DNA of 64,000 nt from Roseivirga spongicola (GTDB lineage Bacteria; Bacteroidota; Bacteroidia; Cytophagales; Cyclobacteriaceae), in contig NZ_LRPC01000001.1 of assembly GCF_001592965.1 (NCBI RefSeq), forward strand, positions 868,001 to 932,000, in the 5' to 3' direction. Below, piece by piece: positions 2,570-11,495 of the stretch. The notes beneath the pieces were generated by a model. It was not told the DNA's origin, made no database searches, and worked only from the letters and a program-made list of their open reading frames with translations. Position 1 is the first letter of the stretch. The number at the start of each line of letters is the position of its first letter. The position numbers and the translations under genes are program-made.

Positions 2570-3298
2570 TTATTTCAGGTCTATTTCTAACACTTGTGGT
2601 TTGGGTTTTTTGAAGTCATCTACCACCGGATAGAAGAGGCCTTTGTACTTTTTTCGCTTGTCTCTAAAGAGGTAAACAATGCCAAGTTCAACCTTACTGT
2701 AGTCCCTATCAAAAGTGTACTCAATAACTTGAAGCGGACCAATGTTTGTTAAGTAGAGCTCTAGACCTTTGATATTATTGGTTTCGGCCAGTACGGTATC
2801 TTGCTGAAAAGTTAGCTGAAGGTTATCGAAAGGGTGATCAGGAATTTTGAACTCCGCTTTGGTTTTCGCTTCAACACCTTCTAGCTTAAGTTTATCTTCT
2901 ACCTTCAAGAAGGTGTATTCTGTAGGCACTGCATCAACAGTGCTACTTAGAATAATCTGATCTTGAGAATAAGAGCCATAAAGCGTGTCTCGTTCACCGA
3001 ACATCAATAGGCTATCTTGCTGCAATTGCCATTGCCAAGATTCATTACCATCCCACGAATGGCTGATAGCAGCTCTTTGAGACTCAAACTGAATTACCAT
3101 TAAACCTGGAGTATAAACCTCAGAAGAATCGTAGGGGTCACCTTCATCGAAAGTAAGCTCTCCTTGCTCCATAGTAGCAGAAAGCACTGGCTGCTTGGCC
3201 TTAATATGAGCCATTACCCAAGTGCCTGAAGGCTGCTGAGCAAATGAATAAGGGAGGACTAAAGAAAGAAGAACTGAGAATCCGAACTTTTTATACAT
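2570..3298 (-). CDS. Secreted protein of unknown function
   Basis: 242 residues with an N-terminal signal peptide (MYKKFGFSVLLSLVLPYSFAQ, cleavage near residue 20). The rest is beta-rich: the first part (GTWVMAHIKAKQP... then WQWQLQQDSLLMFGERDTLYGSYSQDQIILSS) resembles the lipocalin-like 'weight of evidence' domains common in Bacteroidota, in which a term is measured against a threshold, but I cannot name a family. The C-terminal part is lysine-rich. It starts 41 bp after the LytTR regulator on the same strand, so it may be the last gene of the operon that begins at 6499. Its function is unknown; a role in cell-envelope sensing is only a guess from context. Confidence 0.7.
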   Translation of the reverse strand: MYKKFGFSVLLSLVLPYSFAQQPSGTWVMAHIKAKQPVLSATMEQGELTFDEGDPYDSSEVYTPGLMVIQFESQRAAISHSWDGNESWQWQLQQDSLLMFGERDTLYGSYSQDQIILSSTVDAVPTEYTFLKVEDKLKLEGVEAKTKAEFKIPDHPFDNLQLTFQQDTVLAETNNIKGLELYLTNIGPLQVIEYTFDRDYSKVELGIVYLFRDKRKKYKGLFYPVVDDFKKPKPQVLEIDLK

Positions 3299-3339
3299 AA
3301 ACTGATTAACCTAAATGATTAGTCGAAAGTTACAGATAT

Positions 3340-4098
3340 CTATCGATCCAACCACTTTTTAAAGTCTTGTACTCTTTCACGGCTGACAATCGCATCCATT
3401 TCGTCTGATTGATGAAGAATAATGCGCAAACGGCTGTTGGTATAACTGACTATGTCTTTGACGGCACGCATAGAAACCAGATACTTTCGGTTGATTCTGA
3501 AGAAGTCTTGTGGATCAATAAGGCCTTCTACTTCTTCTAAAGTGTAATCTATTATGTATCGCTTCTTCTCTTCTGTGACTAGAAAAGTAGCCTTATCCTG
3601 ACTGAAGAAATAAGCGGTATCACTCACCGGAATAGTATGGATATGCTCCCCAATCTTTACCACAAAACGTTCTTTGTATTGCTTAGTCAGCATTTTCATA
3701 GCCTGCTCTAGCATAGCCATGTTGGGTTGCTGAGGCTCTGGTTGCCTGAAATTCTGGTGAAACTTTTCCAGTGCATGCTTCAGCTCTTCTGGATCTATAG
3801 GCTTGAGCAGATAATCAATGCTATTCACCTTAAAAGCCTTGATGGCGTATTCATCGAAAGCGGTGGTGAAAATAATTGGGGTTTGAATATTCACTTGGTT
3901 GAGGATTTCAAAACTCAATCCATCAGCCAGCTGAATATCGAAGAACAGAAGGTCTGCCTCATTAGCAGAAAGCCACTTTACAGCGGTTTTCACCGAGTCT
4001 AACTGATCGAGAATCTCAATGTCTGGCTCTAGCTTTAGCAAAAGGTTGGTTAACCTTTTGGCCGCCATCGATTCATCTTCAACAATTAATACTTTCAT
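3340..4098 (-). CDS. LytTR-family response regulator (system 1)
   Basis: 252 residues. The N-terminal receiver domain has the acidic pocket VEDE (residues 6-9), the phospho-acceptor Asp54 in LLFFDIQ, and the conserved Lys in YLLKPID near residue 103. The C-terminal ~100 residues form a LytTR DNA-binding domain (FVVKIGEHIHTIPVSDTAYF... through FFRINRKYLVS). It overlaps its kinase gene by 4 bp (ATGA), so the two are translationally coupled. The direct-repeat sites at 6561-6591 and 9361-9391 are its best candidate targets, because the first lies upstream of the operon that contains it. The domain calls are firm; the target assignment is inferred. Confidence 0.95.
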   Translation of the reverse strand: MKVLIVEDESMAAKRLTNLLLKLEPDIEILDQLDSVKTAVKWLSANEADLLFFDIQLADGLSFEILNQVNIQTPIIFTTAFDEYAIKAFKVNSIDYLLKPIDPEELKHALEKFHQNFRQPEPQQPNMAMLEQAMKMLTKQYKERFVVKIGEHIHTIPVSDTAYFFSQDKATFLVTEEKKRYIIDYTLEEVEGLIDPQDFFRINRKYLVSMRAVKDIVSYTNSRLRIILHQSDEMDAIVSRERVQDFKKWLDR

Positions 4099-7130: not shown

Positions 7131-9296
7131 TTATAAATTATCTAATTGATTAGTTTGCTTATCTTTTGTTAGAGTTATGAACAGCCCTACAAATACAAAT
7201 CGCTTAGCTGCCTGACCTATTACCCTACTTTCAAAAACACCTTGATCATTGGCCTGATCTGCATATTCATATCCGAAAATGTTCTCTCTTCCGAATATAT
7301 TGGACGAAGACATATAAAGGATGATGTTCTGCTTGAGCAATACTGCCGCATTTAAACTCACATCGTGATAAGCTGGTGTACTGCTGTTCTGAAAGCCAGC
7401 TTGGTTAGGGTTATGAAAATGGCGAGCAGAAGCAAAGTTGTACGAAGCCCCTACTTGGGTTCTGATCGGGTCTATCATATGTTTTACCACTACCGAAAAG
7501 TTATGTGCCGATAGGAAGGACGGAGTCATTAACTGATCGAAGTTCTGATATTCCCTTTCAGAATCTACGTAGGAGTAAGACACCCAATAATCCGTATTCT
7601 TGATGGTTTTATTATCTCTCCAGAAAACATCTAACCCTTTCGCACTTCCGAAACCATTGTTGTTATAATTATTCGGATCAAAGTCTCTTTCCACCTCAAA
7701 CTTTACCAAGTCTTCATAATCCTTATAATACGTTTCGACTCTGAATATTCTATCGTTCTTAATATGTTGATAATTAAGAATATAATGGGTGGCTCTTTCT
7801 GGCTTAAGAGCCGGTTGTACAATACTGTATTCGTTTTGAGGAGCCTGTACAAATTGACCATATGCCAGCGAAAACTGACCTTCATTATTCAATTTGTAAG
7901 ACATGGCAACCCTTGGGCTCATAAAATGCTGGTCGGTGAGTGAAGTGTATTCGCTCCGTAAACCCGCTCTTACCACAAATCTATTTGACGCATAATAATC
8001 GGCCTCCACAAAATTGGCCATGATGTTCTCTTTAAAGCTTGTCTTAAACGGACTCTCGTTTAAGGGATTGGTTCTTTGCAAATACTCTCTGCTGAACCAA
8101 TCGGCCCCCATGTTTACTGATAGTTTTTCACTAGCATCCCACTGAAGCGCAAGCTTCGAGTGCATGCCCAATTCTTGGCCAAACAGTCCATTACGGTTTA
8201 AGCTCAGGTTATCTTTATTATTGGTAACAGAAACGCCAGATTTTATTGACCACTGCTTATTGAGAATATCTTTATAGCTAGCATTCAAATAGAAATATCT
8301 ATTCTCAAGGTCGAAAGTGTCCTTAACATTGTTCCGATTAATATTCTCTTGCTTGATGGAAAAGCTCGATCTATCAGTATTCAGGTAAACTTTAACTATG
8401 CCTGTTTGACTCACCTTATGCCTGATTACAAACTCAGAACCCACAGAACTTGGTGCTTCCTCCCAATCGAATCGCTGCTTAATTAAGTTCTGATATGGCC
8501 TGAAATCGGTGTAGAGCACTTTACCAGACACACTCGTTTTATCCCATTTTTTGGTGTAAGCCACATCTCCACCTACAGACATTATAGAAATATCTGCCTG
8601 AGACTGGGTTGGCATATCGTTGGAGTTCAGTACCAAAGCCGAAGACAATGCCTGACCATACTCTGCAGAATATCCTCCAGTACTAAAAGAGGTTCCTTTG
8701 AAGAGAAAAGGACTAAAACGACCACGAGTTGGCACATTAGGTGCAGTAGCTCCAAAGGCATTTCTAACCTCAAGTCCATCTATAAATACTTTGGTCTCGT
8801 AGCCTTCGCCACCACGGACAAATAGTCTGCCCGACTCGCCAACGGTGGCTGTTCCTGGTAAGGTATTGATGGCTCCCATAATATCACCAACTGCACTGGC
8901 AGTAGTTGCAATGTCGAGCGGCTTAAGTACAGTGTTCTTTTTTACTTCACCTGCTTCATAAGAACCAGCCGTAATGGTAACACCATCTATTTTATTAATT
9001 TCTTCCTCGAGCTTAAGCTCCAGAGTAATTGATTTTTCTTCAACCTGAACAGGCTTTTCAAGCGTTTTGAAGCCAATAAAGCTAACCACCAGAATATGGC
9101 TTCCCTCTTCATAAGTCTCGAAAGTGAATGAACCGTCATTTTGGCTAACGGCTCCATCGAAGGTGTCTTTCAGATAGATATTGGCTCCGGGAATGGTTTG
9201 ACCTTGACCATCCCGAACCACGCCTTTGATTTGAGTTTGAGCAAATGCCTGTGCTGACAAAACAAGCATTAGAAATAAGTTGATGAGTTTTTGCAT
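7131..9296 (-). CDS. TonB-dependent outer-membrane receptor
   Basis: 721 residues. Signal peptide (1-19), then a carboxypeptidase-regulatory-like beta domain (about 20-105, TQIKGVVRDGQGQTIPGANIYLKDT), a plug domain (about 115-225, with ALNTLPG-type and LFVRGGEGYETKVFIDG motifs) and a C-terminal 22-strand barrel region. The usual SusC box is absent and the protein is shorter than SusC (~1000 residues), so this is a smaller siderophore/metal/cofactor-type receptor of unknown ligand. There is no SusD partner; the downstream partner is DUF2141. Its promoter has a -7-like box and a pair of LytTR-type repeats at the same spacing as the system-1 operon, so it is likely a target of that system. Confidence 0.92.
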   Translation of the reverse strand: MQKLINLFLMLVLSAQAFAQTQIKGVVRDGQGQTIPGANIYLKDTFDGAVSQNDGSFTFETYEEGSHILVVSFIGFKTLEKPVQVEEKSITLELKLEEEINKIDGVTITAGSYEAGEVKKNTVLKPLDIATTASAVGDIMGAINTLPGTATVGESGRLFVRGGEGYETKVFIDGLEVRNAFGATAPNVPTRGRFSPFLFKGTSFSTGGYSAEYGQALSSALVLNSNDMPTQSQADISIMSVGGDVAYTKKWDKTSVSGKVLYTDFRPYQNLIKQRFDWEEAPSSVGSEFVIRHKVSQTGIVKVYLNTDRSSFSIKQENINRNNVKDTFDLENRYFYLNASYKDILNKQWSIKSGVSVTNNKDNLSLNRNGLFGQELGMHSKLALQWDASEKLSVNMGADWFSREYLQRTNPLNESPFKTSFKENIMANFVEADYYASNRFVVRAGLRSEYTSLTDQHFMSPRVAMSYKLNNEGQFSLAYGQFVQAPQNEYSIVQPALKPERATHYILNYQHIKNDRIFRVETYYKDYEDLVKFEVERDFDPNNYNNNGFGSAKGLDVFWRDNKTIKNTDYWVSYSYVDSEREYQNFDQLMTPSFLSAHNFSVVVKHMIDPIRTQVGASYNFASARHFHNPNQAGFQNSSTPAYHDVSLNAAVLLKQNIILYMSSSNIFGRENIFGYEYADQANDQGVFESRVIGQAAKRFVFVGLFITLTKDKQTNQLDNL

Positions 9297-9318: not shown

Positions 9319-9391
9319 CAAAGGTGCTGCGAACTCAGTCCTTTACTAAATAAGTCTTACCGAACTGTAGAATTGAGAAGATGAGTTGTAA
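9319..9391 (-). promoter_or_regulatory. LytTR-type operator and promoter of the TonB receptor gene
   Basis: CGAACTGTAG at 9361-9370 and TGAGTTGTAA at 9382-9391 are direct repeats 21 bp apart, matching the sites at 6561-6591. A -7-like box (CACCTTTG on the minus strand, 7 of 8 to consensus) lies at 9319-9326. The distance from the AAC core (9363) to the box end is 37 bp, identical to that at the 6499 promoter. Confidence 0.72.
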
Positions 9392-9399
9392 AGTTCAAC

Positions 9400-9478
9400 A
9401 TGTATAGAAAGTATATCAAAACTATACACGTCACTAACGACATGTATAGAATTTGCGATTTTCTATACATGTTAAGTT
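9400..9478 (+). repeat. 79-bp direct repeat, left copy, with operator-like palindromes
   Basis: Identical over 79 bp to 10591-10669. It contains ATGTATAG and CTATACAC half-sites and an inverted repeat with 12-bp arms, ACATGTATAGAA and TTCTATACATGT, around a 9-base loop. A further pair of boxes (ATATGTATA ... TATACATAT) follows and ends at the fic start codon, so the array covers the whole fic promoter region. Confidence 0.95.
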
Positions 9479-9511
9479 TGATATGTATATATTTATTCAA
9501 TTTCTATACAT

Positions 9512-10591
9512 ATGAATTTACCCTTCCTGCCCCCAAACGTTCCTCTAGAAAGAATAGAAACTCGGAAAGTTCTTAAACTTTTGACCGAGGCAAGGGCGTC
9601 ATTAGCCGAACTCAAAGGAGCAGCTAGCACCATCCCGAATGAACAGATCCTTATAGACACTCTTTCTCTGCAAGAAGCTAAAGACAGTTCCGCCATCGAG
9701 AATATTGTCACTACTCACGATGAATTGTATAGATCTGAAGTAGATAAAGAGGATTTTGCTTCAGCTTCTGCCAAAGAGGTACATCGATATGCAGAAGCTC
9801 TTAAATATGGATTCGATACCATTCGAAGAGATCGAATCCTTACCACTAATAGTATCTTGAAAATTCAAGAAATCATCGAAGGGAATAGTGCTGGAGTGAG
9901 GAAAGTACCCGGAACTGTCTTAAAAAATGATCTTACAGGAGAAGTTGTATACACCCCACCACAAGACTTTCAAACCATTCAAGAGCTGCTAAGCAACCTT
10001 GAAAAGTTCATCAATAACGACTTAGCCTACGATGCTGACCCATTGGTGAGAATGGCTATTATTCATCATCAGTTCGAAAGCATACACCCATTCTTTGATG
10101 GCAACGGCAGAACAGGAAGAATCATCAATATACTATACCTTATCAATGAAGGATTGCTCAACCTACCTGTTTTGTATCTCAGTAGGTATATAATTAAAAA
10201 CAGACCTGAATATTACGAACTACTACAATCTACTAGAGTCTCTAACGAGTGGGAACCTTGGGTTATATTTATGCTCAAAGCAGTAGAAGAGACTTCAAAA
10301 GAGACTGTTATTCTAATCAAAGCCATTAAATCATTAATGCTTTCAACTAAAAAGAGAATTAGAGAAGAGCAATCAGGAATATATAGCCAAGACTTGATCA
10401 ACAACCTTTTCCGACATCCTTATACCAAGATAGACAGGCTTCAGAAAGACCTACATATCTCAAGAATTACTTCAACGCGTTACTTGAATATCTTAACGGA
10501 AATGGGCATTCTCAATAAGCAAAAGCTTGGTCGTTCGAATTACTACGTTAACATTGAGCTCTTTAAACTTCTAAGCGAAGGGGTTAAGTAA
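9512..10591 (+). CDS. fic: Fic-domain protein with C-terminal winged helix
   Basis: 359 residues. An N-terminal Fic_N helix carries the inhibitory motif SSAIEN (residues 59-64, Glu63), typical of class II self-inhibited Fic enzymes. The catalytic Fic motif is complete: HPFFDGNGRTGR at residues 192-203, with His192 and the ATP-binding Gly/Arg loop. Such enzymes transfer AMP (or another nucleotide moiety) to hydroxyl side chains of a target protein. The C-terminal ~75 residues (DLHISRITSTRYLNILTEMGILNKQKLGRSNYY) form a winged-helix DNA-binding domain, which suggests autoregulation through the TGTATAG boxes. The gene is bounded by 79-bp direct repeats; the second begins at the last base of the stop codon. 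No separate antitoxin is encoded. Confidence 0.93.
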   Translation: MNLPFLPPNVPLERIETRKVLKLLTEARASLAELKGAASTIPNEQILIDTLSLQEAKDSSAIENIVTTHDELYRSEVDKEDFASASAKEVHRYAEALKYGFDTIRRDRILTTNSILKIQEIIEGNSAGVRKVPGTVLKNDLTGEVVYTPPQDFQTIQELLSNLEKFINNDLAYDADPLVRMAIIHHQFESIHPFFDGNGRTGRIINILYLINEGLLNLPVLYLSRYIIKNRPEYYELLQSTRVSNEWEPWVIFMLKAVEETSKETVILIKAIKSLMLSTKKRIREEQSGIYSQDLINNLFRHPYTKIDRLQKDLHISRITSTRYLNILTEMGILNKQKLGRSNYYVNIELFKLLSEGVK

Positions 10592-10669
10592 TGTATAGAA
10601 AGTATATCAAAACTATACACGTCACTAACGACATGTATAGAATTTGCGATTTTCTATACATGTTAAGTT
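10591..10669 (+). repeat. 79-bp direct repeat, right copy
   Basis: An exact copy of 9400-9478, beginning at the final base of the fic stop codon. It has no gene to regulate directly downstream on the plus strand, because the next gene is convergent. That makes a pure operator role for this copy less obvious. Confidence 0.95.
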
Positions 10670-10677
10670 CAAATTGA

Positions 10678-10739
10678 CTCAAAATCCAAAATGATTATGT
10701 TTATTTTGGATTCAATTCCAAAATGATTATGATTTTGAG
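10678..10739. repeat. Gene-less palindromic array with CCAAAATGATTATG boxes
   Basis: The direct repeat CCAAAATGATTATG occurs at 10686-10699 and 10718-10731. The array is bounded by the inverted ends CTCAAAATC (10678-10686) and GATTTTGAG (10731-10739). AATCCAAAAT pairs with ATTTTGGATT inside it. It starts 8 bp after the right fic repeat and ends before the stop of the convergent LytTR gene. It looks like an operator array without its gene. Confidence 0.7.
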
Positions 10740-10754: not shown

Positions 10755-11495
10755 CTAATACCTCAAAACCTCTTTCAACCTGCCATGACCGCTTCTACTA
10801 ACGGGTAGTTGCTGACCGTTTTTGAGGTAGAGAATGTAAGAGTCCTTCTCATAAAGCTCCAGCTTTTCAATATGCTTTACATTGACAATATGAGACCGAT
10901 GAATTCTCACAAAGTCTCCTGTGGGTAAACCATTCTCTAGCGCTTTCATACGCATTAGTTTCAGAAACTTACCTTGATCAGAATGAATGGCCACATAATC
11001 GTCTTGCGCCTCAAAGTGATGAACCTGATTAAGCGCTAGAATCTGAATTTTGTTTCCCGTCTTCACCACAATACGGTCTAGACTTTCTTGCTCAGACCTA
11101 GTTTCTTTTAAGCCTTCCAACTCCTTTTGGTTGCTTTCCTTCTGACCTATTTTAGCTAAGGCCTTTTTAACGGCCTCTTCAAAACGAGCTTCAGAATAAG
11201 GCTTCAGCAGATAGTCAGTGGCATTTAGCTCGAAGGCTTTAATGGCATACTGATCGAAAGCAGTGCTGAAGATAACCACAGGCGGATTTTCAATAAGCTC
11301 CAACATCTCGAACCCAGTGATTTTCGGCATTTGAATGTCGAGAAAGATCAAATCTGGATTATGTTGTTGAATAGCCTTTAACCCCTGAAAACCATCGGAA
11401 CACTCAGCAATAATTTCTACCTGATCGAACTTTTTGAGATAAGCCTTAATAAGCTCTCTTGCCAAATTTTCATCGTCTATAATTACTGCCTTCAT
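10755..11495 (-). CDS. LytTR-family response regulator (system 2)
   Basis: 246 residues. Receiver domain with IIDDE at residues 5-9, phospho-acceptor Asp53 in LIFLDIQMP and Lys in YLLKPYSEARF. A short linker rich in Lys/Glu precedes the LytTR domain (about 145-246, RIVVKTGNKIQILALNQVHHFEAQDDYVAIHS ... FVRIHRSHIVNVKHIEKLE). It overlaps its kinase gene by 4 bp. A distinct direct-repeat site (13683-13713) lies upstream of the LiaF-like gene that heads this cluster and is the likely target. Assignment of regulator to site is inferred from position. Confidence 0.95.
   Translation of the reverse strand: MKAVIIDDENLARELIKAYLKKFDQVEIIAECSDGFQGLKAIQQHNPDLIFLDIQMPKITGFEMLELIENPPVVIFSTAFDQYAIKAFELNATDYLLKPYSEARFEEAVKKALAKIGQKESNQKELEGLKETRSEQESLDRIVVKTGNKIQILALNQVHHFEAQDDYVAIHSDQGKFLKLMRMKALENGLPTGDFVRIHRSHIVNVKHIEKLELYEKDSYILYLKNGQQLPVSRSGHGRLKEVLRY

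Follow-up and report, generated by a model that had tools for sequence, protein, structure and literature searches.

Fic AMPylases of class II combine the Fic motif HPFxDGNGRxxR with an N-terminal inhibitory motif, [S/T]xxxE[G/N]. The closest described system is SoFic, a single-gene anti-phage AMPylase (PADLOC; Shewanella SoFic 3eqx/3zcn, E. coli EcSofic 9vjc). The fic gene studied here, located in a stretch of 64,000 nt from Roseivirga spongicola (the window), encodes the same domains and the same Fic motif. The excerpted text on EcSofic assigns the C-terminal domain a role in regulating toxicity and describes AS1, an antitoxin of 47 residues encoded downstream; operator arrays like those of the window are not spoken of in this excerpt (PMC12249575). 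According to the excerpt of a 2023 paper, DNA binding by SoFic had not yet been demonstrated (PMC10628234).

Two other systems are related by mode of regulation. CccR, a Fic-HTH protein of Yersinia pseudotuberculosis, represses its own promoter via an inverted repeat and resembles the window fic in joining a Fic toxin to a C-terminal helix-turn-helix with a palindromic operator. Its DNA-binding helices are 70.2 Å apart, corresponding to ~21 bp of B-DNA, which is close to the 21-bp box spacing in the window. In contrast, CccR is a more distant Fic and a secreted effector with one promoter operator and a 26-bp spacer, and a flanking operator copy is not mentioned in the excerpt (PMC9755527). RptR, the repressor of a restriction-modification island, resembles the proposed SoFic regulation in being an autorepressor on short repeated palindromes with a link to type I restriction; it differs in being alpha-helical, its repeats lie in the promoter and the text of the paper does not mention Fic (PMC12255303).

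In the window, fic lies between two identical arrays of palindromic boxes. A report of this arrangement was not found in titles and abstract starts of the open-licence literature, nor did that literature yield a match for a Fic domain with direct repeats and excision. Recombination between flanking repeats leaving one copy behind is well known from solo LTRs and other direct-repeat deletion scars. The repeat in the window differs from those as it looks like an operator, and transposition machinery was not found.

We consider it probable (roughly three in four) that a SoFic gene under autoregulation is flanked here by its own operator array in two copies, and that recombination deletes fic while a solo array stays. 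The C-terminal winged-helix domain of SoFic, assumed to act as dimers, would bind the boxes, whose spacing would correspond to about two helical turns, and would thereby control fic. The upstream (U) and downstream (D) arrays share one orientation, so that fic could be deleted through homologous recombination between them or through replication slippage. One array would be left, which would persist and later decay. This would be a simple route to shed a toxic defence gene while its operator remains.

The fic locus of the window

A summary of the locus is given in Table 1. As stated in the preliminary description, exact direct repeats of 79 bp flank one fic gene; a sequence comparison within the window gave 100% identity. 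The palindromic boxes lie in fic's own promoter region (9400-9511), as read from the sequence only.

Table 1. Features of the fic locus. Positions refer to the window.
Feature	Position	Strand	Remarks
TonB-dependent receptor, left neighbour	7131..9296	-	name from the preliminary description; marker for the homologous site
Upstream operator array (U), predicted	9400..9478	+	left copy of the 79-bp repeat; four alternating TGTATAG/CTATACA boxes, ~21 bp apart
Start-proximal palindrome (TGATATGTATA...TTTCTATACAT)	9479..9511	+	abuts the fic start codon; absent from the downstream copy
fic, predicted SoFic-type AMPylase	9512..10591	+	359 aa; sole fic ORF between the repeats; Fic_N, Fic and SoFic-like_C domains
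Downstream operator array (D), predicted	10591..10669	+	identical to U; its first base coincides with the final one of the fic stop codon
CCAAAAT palindromic array	10686..10731	+	no gene behind; counterpart in G015 and G018 precedes an AAA_14/DUF4143 ATPase
LytTR response regulator, right neighbour	10755..11495	-	name from the preliminary description; convergent with fic

The fic protein matches the PADLOC model of SoFic with an E-value of 8.5e-122 and the EcSofic structure 9vjc in the PDB with 2.8e-93. The Fic motif is present at residues 192-203, nearly all positions being invariant among 36 sequences, and S59, E63 and N64 of the inhibitory motif are invariant in the same set. Judged by these features, fic is a predicted SoFic-type (class II) AMPylase of the phage-defence family. 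The structure model (mean pLDDT 90) exhibits a helix at 318-330 and, directly after it, two strands that form a beta wing, as in a winged helix. Carriage of fic by phages was considered and rejected: viral contigs contained one relative only (55% identical).

Box arrays at SoFic loci

Arrays adjoin most of the 134 SoFic loci examined, either upstream, downstream or, as in the window, on both sides. A spaced array, i.e. at least three boxes with regular spacing, was detected in 60 upstream and 48 downstream regions of the 134 loci, compared to 5 of 267 regions after shuffling and, among 156 other ORFs from the same loci, to 6 and 8. Demanding at least four boxes gave 57 of 133 and 33 of 134 regions versus 2 of 268 shuffles, and at least two TGTATA boxes were present upstream of 21 and downstream of 12 of the 134 loci versus 1 and 1 of 159 other ORFs. 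With TGTATA boxes added, an array was assigned to the upstream side alone at 56 loci, to the downstream side alone at 44, to both sides at 6 and to neither at 28; this set is biased toward close relatives and contains duplicates (L006 and L040 are one locus, L086 and L087 match in length and position). An automatic extraction of half-sites placed just 78 of the 134 loci and was left out of the counts.

By eye, both-sided arrays are seen in the window, in six Pedobacter loci and in L060. The automatic class "both" comprises L004, L009, L062, L079, L109 and L203, of which L009, L109 and L203 are likely due to chance, and it misses L055, L060, L061, L068 and L105, where both arrays are visible by eye.

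Direct repeats around the gene (score of at least 16) are in excess at SoFic loci, 18 of 108 versus 6 of 216 other ORFs. We place little weight on this excess because only six of the 18 are arrays (L004, L060, L061, L062, L079, L105). Ten are other repeats, mostly off the gene ends (L009, L013, L020, L027, L030, L034, L047, L077, L080, L108), and two are short (L021, L033). The other repeats of L013, L020, L027, L030, L047, L080 and L108 are ~40-126 bp long; non-array repeats of this kind possibly represent duplicated neighbour genes or cassette arrays.

Box sequence and residues of the recognition helix

Both the box sequence and the first residues of one helix vary between SoFic clades. TGTATA boxes go along with R[I/L/V]T, TGTTAA with RQT (7 of 8), TGTGCA with HRNT (5/5), TGTACCA with ERKA (4/4), CGTGGGCC with ARKT (6/6), TATAACCC with SRNT (4/4), TATAAGTC with SRST (3/3) and TGAACA with SRTT (12/12), many of the sequences being close relatives. 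TGTAAAG boxes are paired with SRPT where the array is downstream (7/7) and with SR[I/V]T where it is upstream (7 of 8). The code is therefore not one-to-one, with proline at 319 in the former and mostly I or V in the latter.

Residue 319 is the alignment column most informative on box type in both the full set (64) and the restricted set (51), with an adjusted mutual information of 0.65; the box labels had been assigned by hand to 101 of the 134 loci ahead of any look at the residues, whereas the restricted set was defined later. In the restricted set, 319 is followed by 317 and 322, which rank 8th and 10th in the full set. In the structure model, 317, 319 and 322 map to the start of the predicted recognition helix (318-330).

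A test without labels gave the same picture. At 45-70% protein identity, loci with the same three residues share 5.6 8-mers (66 pairs) versus 2.4 for the remainder (3,787 pairs), the pairs not being independent. For pairs of one upstream and one downstream array the values are 5.4 (20 pairs) and 2.3 (1,957 pairs). None of 300 random residue triples matched the observed difference in 8-mers. Two cases that were checked afterwards fit as well: the second SoFic of G015 has a TPKT helix and boxes resembling those of the other TPKT clade, and the SoFic of G007 combines an SRTT helix with TGTCC/TGAACA boxes.

Since box sequence covaries with residues 317, 319 and 322 regardless of whether the array is upstream or downstream, the arrays are most likely operators of SoFic itself, as predicted from sequence comparison. 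The preliminary description had named operators as the alternative reading of the repeats, which is most likely right for their identity. The SoFic C-terminal domain, for which we found no proven DNA target, would hereby gain a concrete predicted target and a partly readable code from residue to base.

In L046, L047 and L051, where fic precedes hsdR, the array proximal to fic shows TGTAAAG together with proline 319, and the box proximal to hsdR is TGTATAG as in relatives. This would fit a joint replacement of fic and its array.

Solo arrays in the genus

The preliminary description expected recombination between the repeats to remove fic with a scar as the product, and proposed to look in relatives for an empty site between the receptor and LytTR genes and for solo copies of the repeat. 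Such copies do occur. At the homologous receptor-gene site a single array without fic is found in three genomes of the genus (G015, G018, G007) and a decayed one in a fourth (G016; 48/70 identical); the excision itself would be the step connecting these states. The LytTR regulator is present in 19 of 19 genus genomes. The receptor gene adjoins it in four others within the fetched flanks (L115, L116, L124, L128), two of which, G002 (L124) and G003 (L128), have no array at the site.

The array of G015 is identical to that of the window in 74 of 77 positions. Its left flank resembles the left of U (91/100) and its right flank the right of D (70/94), and the controls from the fic sides show no similarity. 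In G018, where the receptor is separated from LytTR by an ATPase gene, one array (74/76) is located between receptor and ATPase. The array of G007 (61/78) lies beside a homologous receptor gene; its flanks are barely alignable with the window, hence the site assignment depends on the receptor gene alone. Moreover G012 harbours a 67% identical fic elsewhere, with an upstream array in the same order as in the window and the downstream array missing. A DNA search of the family matched 8 of 295 genomes: the own genome, G018 and G007 (solo), G012, G361 and G430 (beside a SoFic gene), and G066 and G096 with short matches not counted as arrays; G015 is not among the eight.

We considered whether another SoFic encoded in the same genome might bind the solo arrays, and rejected this. 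The second SoFics of G015 (44% identical) and G007 (40%) have other boxes and other helix residues and, by sequence, do not look like partners of the solo arrays. G018 contains just one distant Fic match (E 9e-13).

Taken together, excision is most likely a correct account of what the repeats make possible, and we infer loss of fic rather than gain. Against loss, a solo array might conceivably predate fic at its site. Simple ancient loss also leaves unexplained why the G018 array is 97% identical amid flanks of 63-68% identity (69/102 and 59/94), and this excess does not fit a passive scar unless it is recent. Either selection acting on the array or a recent exchange with subsequent loss would explain it. 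The G018 array thus hints at exchange.

A comparison with empty sites in E. coli was abandoned, as 9 of 5,426 genomes matched over only 105 bases, to another fic.

Downstream arrays and neighbouring genes

Autorepression alone does not explain the arrays located downstream only (44 of 134 loci). In some relatives the order is fic, array and then hsdR, a type III res gene or hsdS. Within the hsdR group, the array separates fic from the hsdR gene that follows; hsdS is found on the upstream side, within 1.5 kb in five loci and farther away in L043. A restriction gene on the same strand within 700 bp is found at 12 of 44 loci with a downstream array versus 1 of 56 with an upstream array only; five of the twelve supplied search queries, and 7 of 39 remain when these are excluded. 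The same holds for 5 of 28 loci classed without array. In two Pedobacter genomes pieces of MTase_III and REase_III follow the downstream array. This suggests from gene order that SoFic may also control restriction genes, and arrays of the same kind connect it with adjacent restriction genes of types I and III.

In G015 and G018 the solo array is followed on the same strand by an AAA/DUF4143 ATPase of the PDC-S01 group (PADLOC assignment made on the G015 protein), which has its own CCAAAAT array. The window retains the CCAAAAT array without the ATPase gene.

These observations bear on the possibility that D is, or was, the functional operator of a neighbouring defence or restriction gene likewise repressed by SoFic, which has been lost in the window, so that the repeat would be a by-product of a shared regulator. 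Restriction genes behind downstream arrays and the ATPase behind the solo arrays speak for it, but 32 of 44 downstream-array loci lack such a restriction gene, the ATPase has its own, different array, and the window has no same-strand ORF of at least 60 aa between fic and LytTR. As to a small downstream antitoxin gene such as that of AS1, the sole ORF of at least 20 aa on the plus strand there has 28 aa and lies inside the downstream array (10591-10677). We regard this account as possible but doubtful; it is compatible with deletion of an autoregulated fic between its own operators.

A wider view is more tentative still and in our opinion rather unlikely. Here, binding to the array would also set the state of the enzyme, the DNA serving as antitoxin or sensor, and would control adjacent restriction genes, and the duplicated arrays would be a site of fic loss and of regain via solo arrays. 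If true, DNA binding that sets the enzyme state would explain why arrays are located upstream, downstream or on both sides.

Elsewhere in the genus, genes for AAA_14/DUF4143 ATPases are directly preceded by palindromes of another sequence, so that regulation by arrays may extend to this ATPase family. L073 contains two Fic genes in opposite orientation, 2 kb apart. The one at 20-1027 is 31% identical to the query; the one at 3001-4068 is 58% identical and has an array and then a type III restriction gene behind it.

Pedobacter and a third lineage

Of 145 Pedobacter genomes, 6 carry a fic of a clade that shares at least 91% identity with the fic of G197, all six with both arrays. Seven further genomes have an array without such a fic (G211, G227, G270, G282, G307, G315, G328). 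The array of G282 is 174 bases from the contig end, so that its solo state depends on the absence of fic from the assembly, and those of G315, G328 and G270 are located at sites where no fic was seen. The underlying array search matched 17 of 145 genomes, with the short matches in G277, G279, G288 and G332 left out; the one in G288 may be a decayed array. For G211 and G315 we considered an operator of HipA_2 as the meaning of the solo arrays and rejected it: G244 lacks an array at this position and still conserves the sequence immediately preceding HipA_2.

At the pdhB site, fic lies between arrays in 4 genomes and one gene further in 1, an array is present alone in 4 and a weak remnant in 1 (G341), among 60 genomes taken from 144 matching ones (the 40 best-ranked and 20 chosen lower), the search profile being built from the same arrays. 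G321 as a further remnant at this site was not significant. The states of array and fic are scattered across the pdhB tree.

Synonymous divergence of fic equals or exceeds that of pdhB in 9 of 10 pairs (G195-G198, G200), the exception being G197-G198 with 0.57 for fic and 0.83 for pdhB; pairs with G199 are saturated for fic. Non-synonymous divergence of fic is low. The Pedobacter fic therefore looks old, constrained and repeatedly lost, and the comparison with pdhB makes its descent look mostly vertical. The patterns in the genus and in Pedobacter fit repeated loss of fic by repeat recombination with one operator left as a scar.

For a third lineage we used the TATAACCC array of L060 as query, which matched 5 of 195 genomes of its family, the own one included. 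L301 shows an array-like stretch without fic within ~3 kb and L302 a degraded one; L303 and L304 gave short matches only.

Possible mobility of the unit

Alternatively, fic and its arrays might leave as a circle and re-enter solo arrays by homologous recombination, spreading without a transposase. The conservation of the G018 array, arrays at several different Pedobacter sites, and the case of G198, whose fic occupies one site while a third array stands alone at the position of fic in G200, are in line with this. However, the synonymous divergence in Pedobacter speaks for mostly vertical descent, neither a circular form nor a donor was seen and viral contigs hold the single relative only. Spread as a circular cassette thus appears unlikely.

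A composite transposon or insertion cassette with terminal inverted repeats and a transposase acting in trans, close to what the preliminary description had proposed from a perfect 14-bp inverted pair (9397-9410 and 10651-10664) and AAGTTC on both sides (9391-9396 and 10665-10670), is highly improbable: the identical pair recurs inside the left array alone (9397-9410 and 9460-9473) and is therefore not specific to the unit ends, and five of the six right-hand AAGTTC bases (10665-10669) lie inside the 79-bp repeat with only one outside. The 14-bp repeats do exist, but as boxes of arrays common to most of the 134 SoFic loci and not as termini. The supposed target duplication is an artefact, AAGTTC not being conserved in G015 or G018; an empty site implying insertion with duplication was not found in the relatives, and the own genome, when searched with the unit, yielded three matches, all at the fic locus, and no further copy. 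The 79-bp repeats look like operators that allow loss of fic, not like transposon ends.

Other genes at the pdhB site

In L264 (G198) the order is pdhB, array, fic, array, a type III restriction fragment, DUF885 and array. In L251 (G307) the solo array at the pdhB site is followed by a gene with NYN domain at 1509-2141, which PADLOC assigns to HEC-09; single defence genes may have a hot spot at this site.
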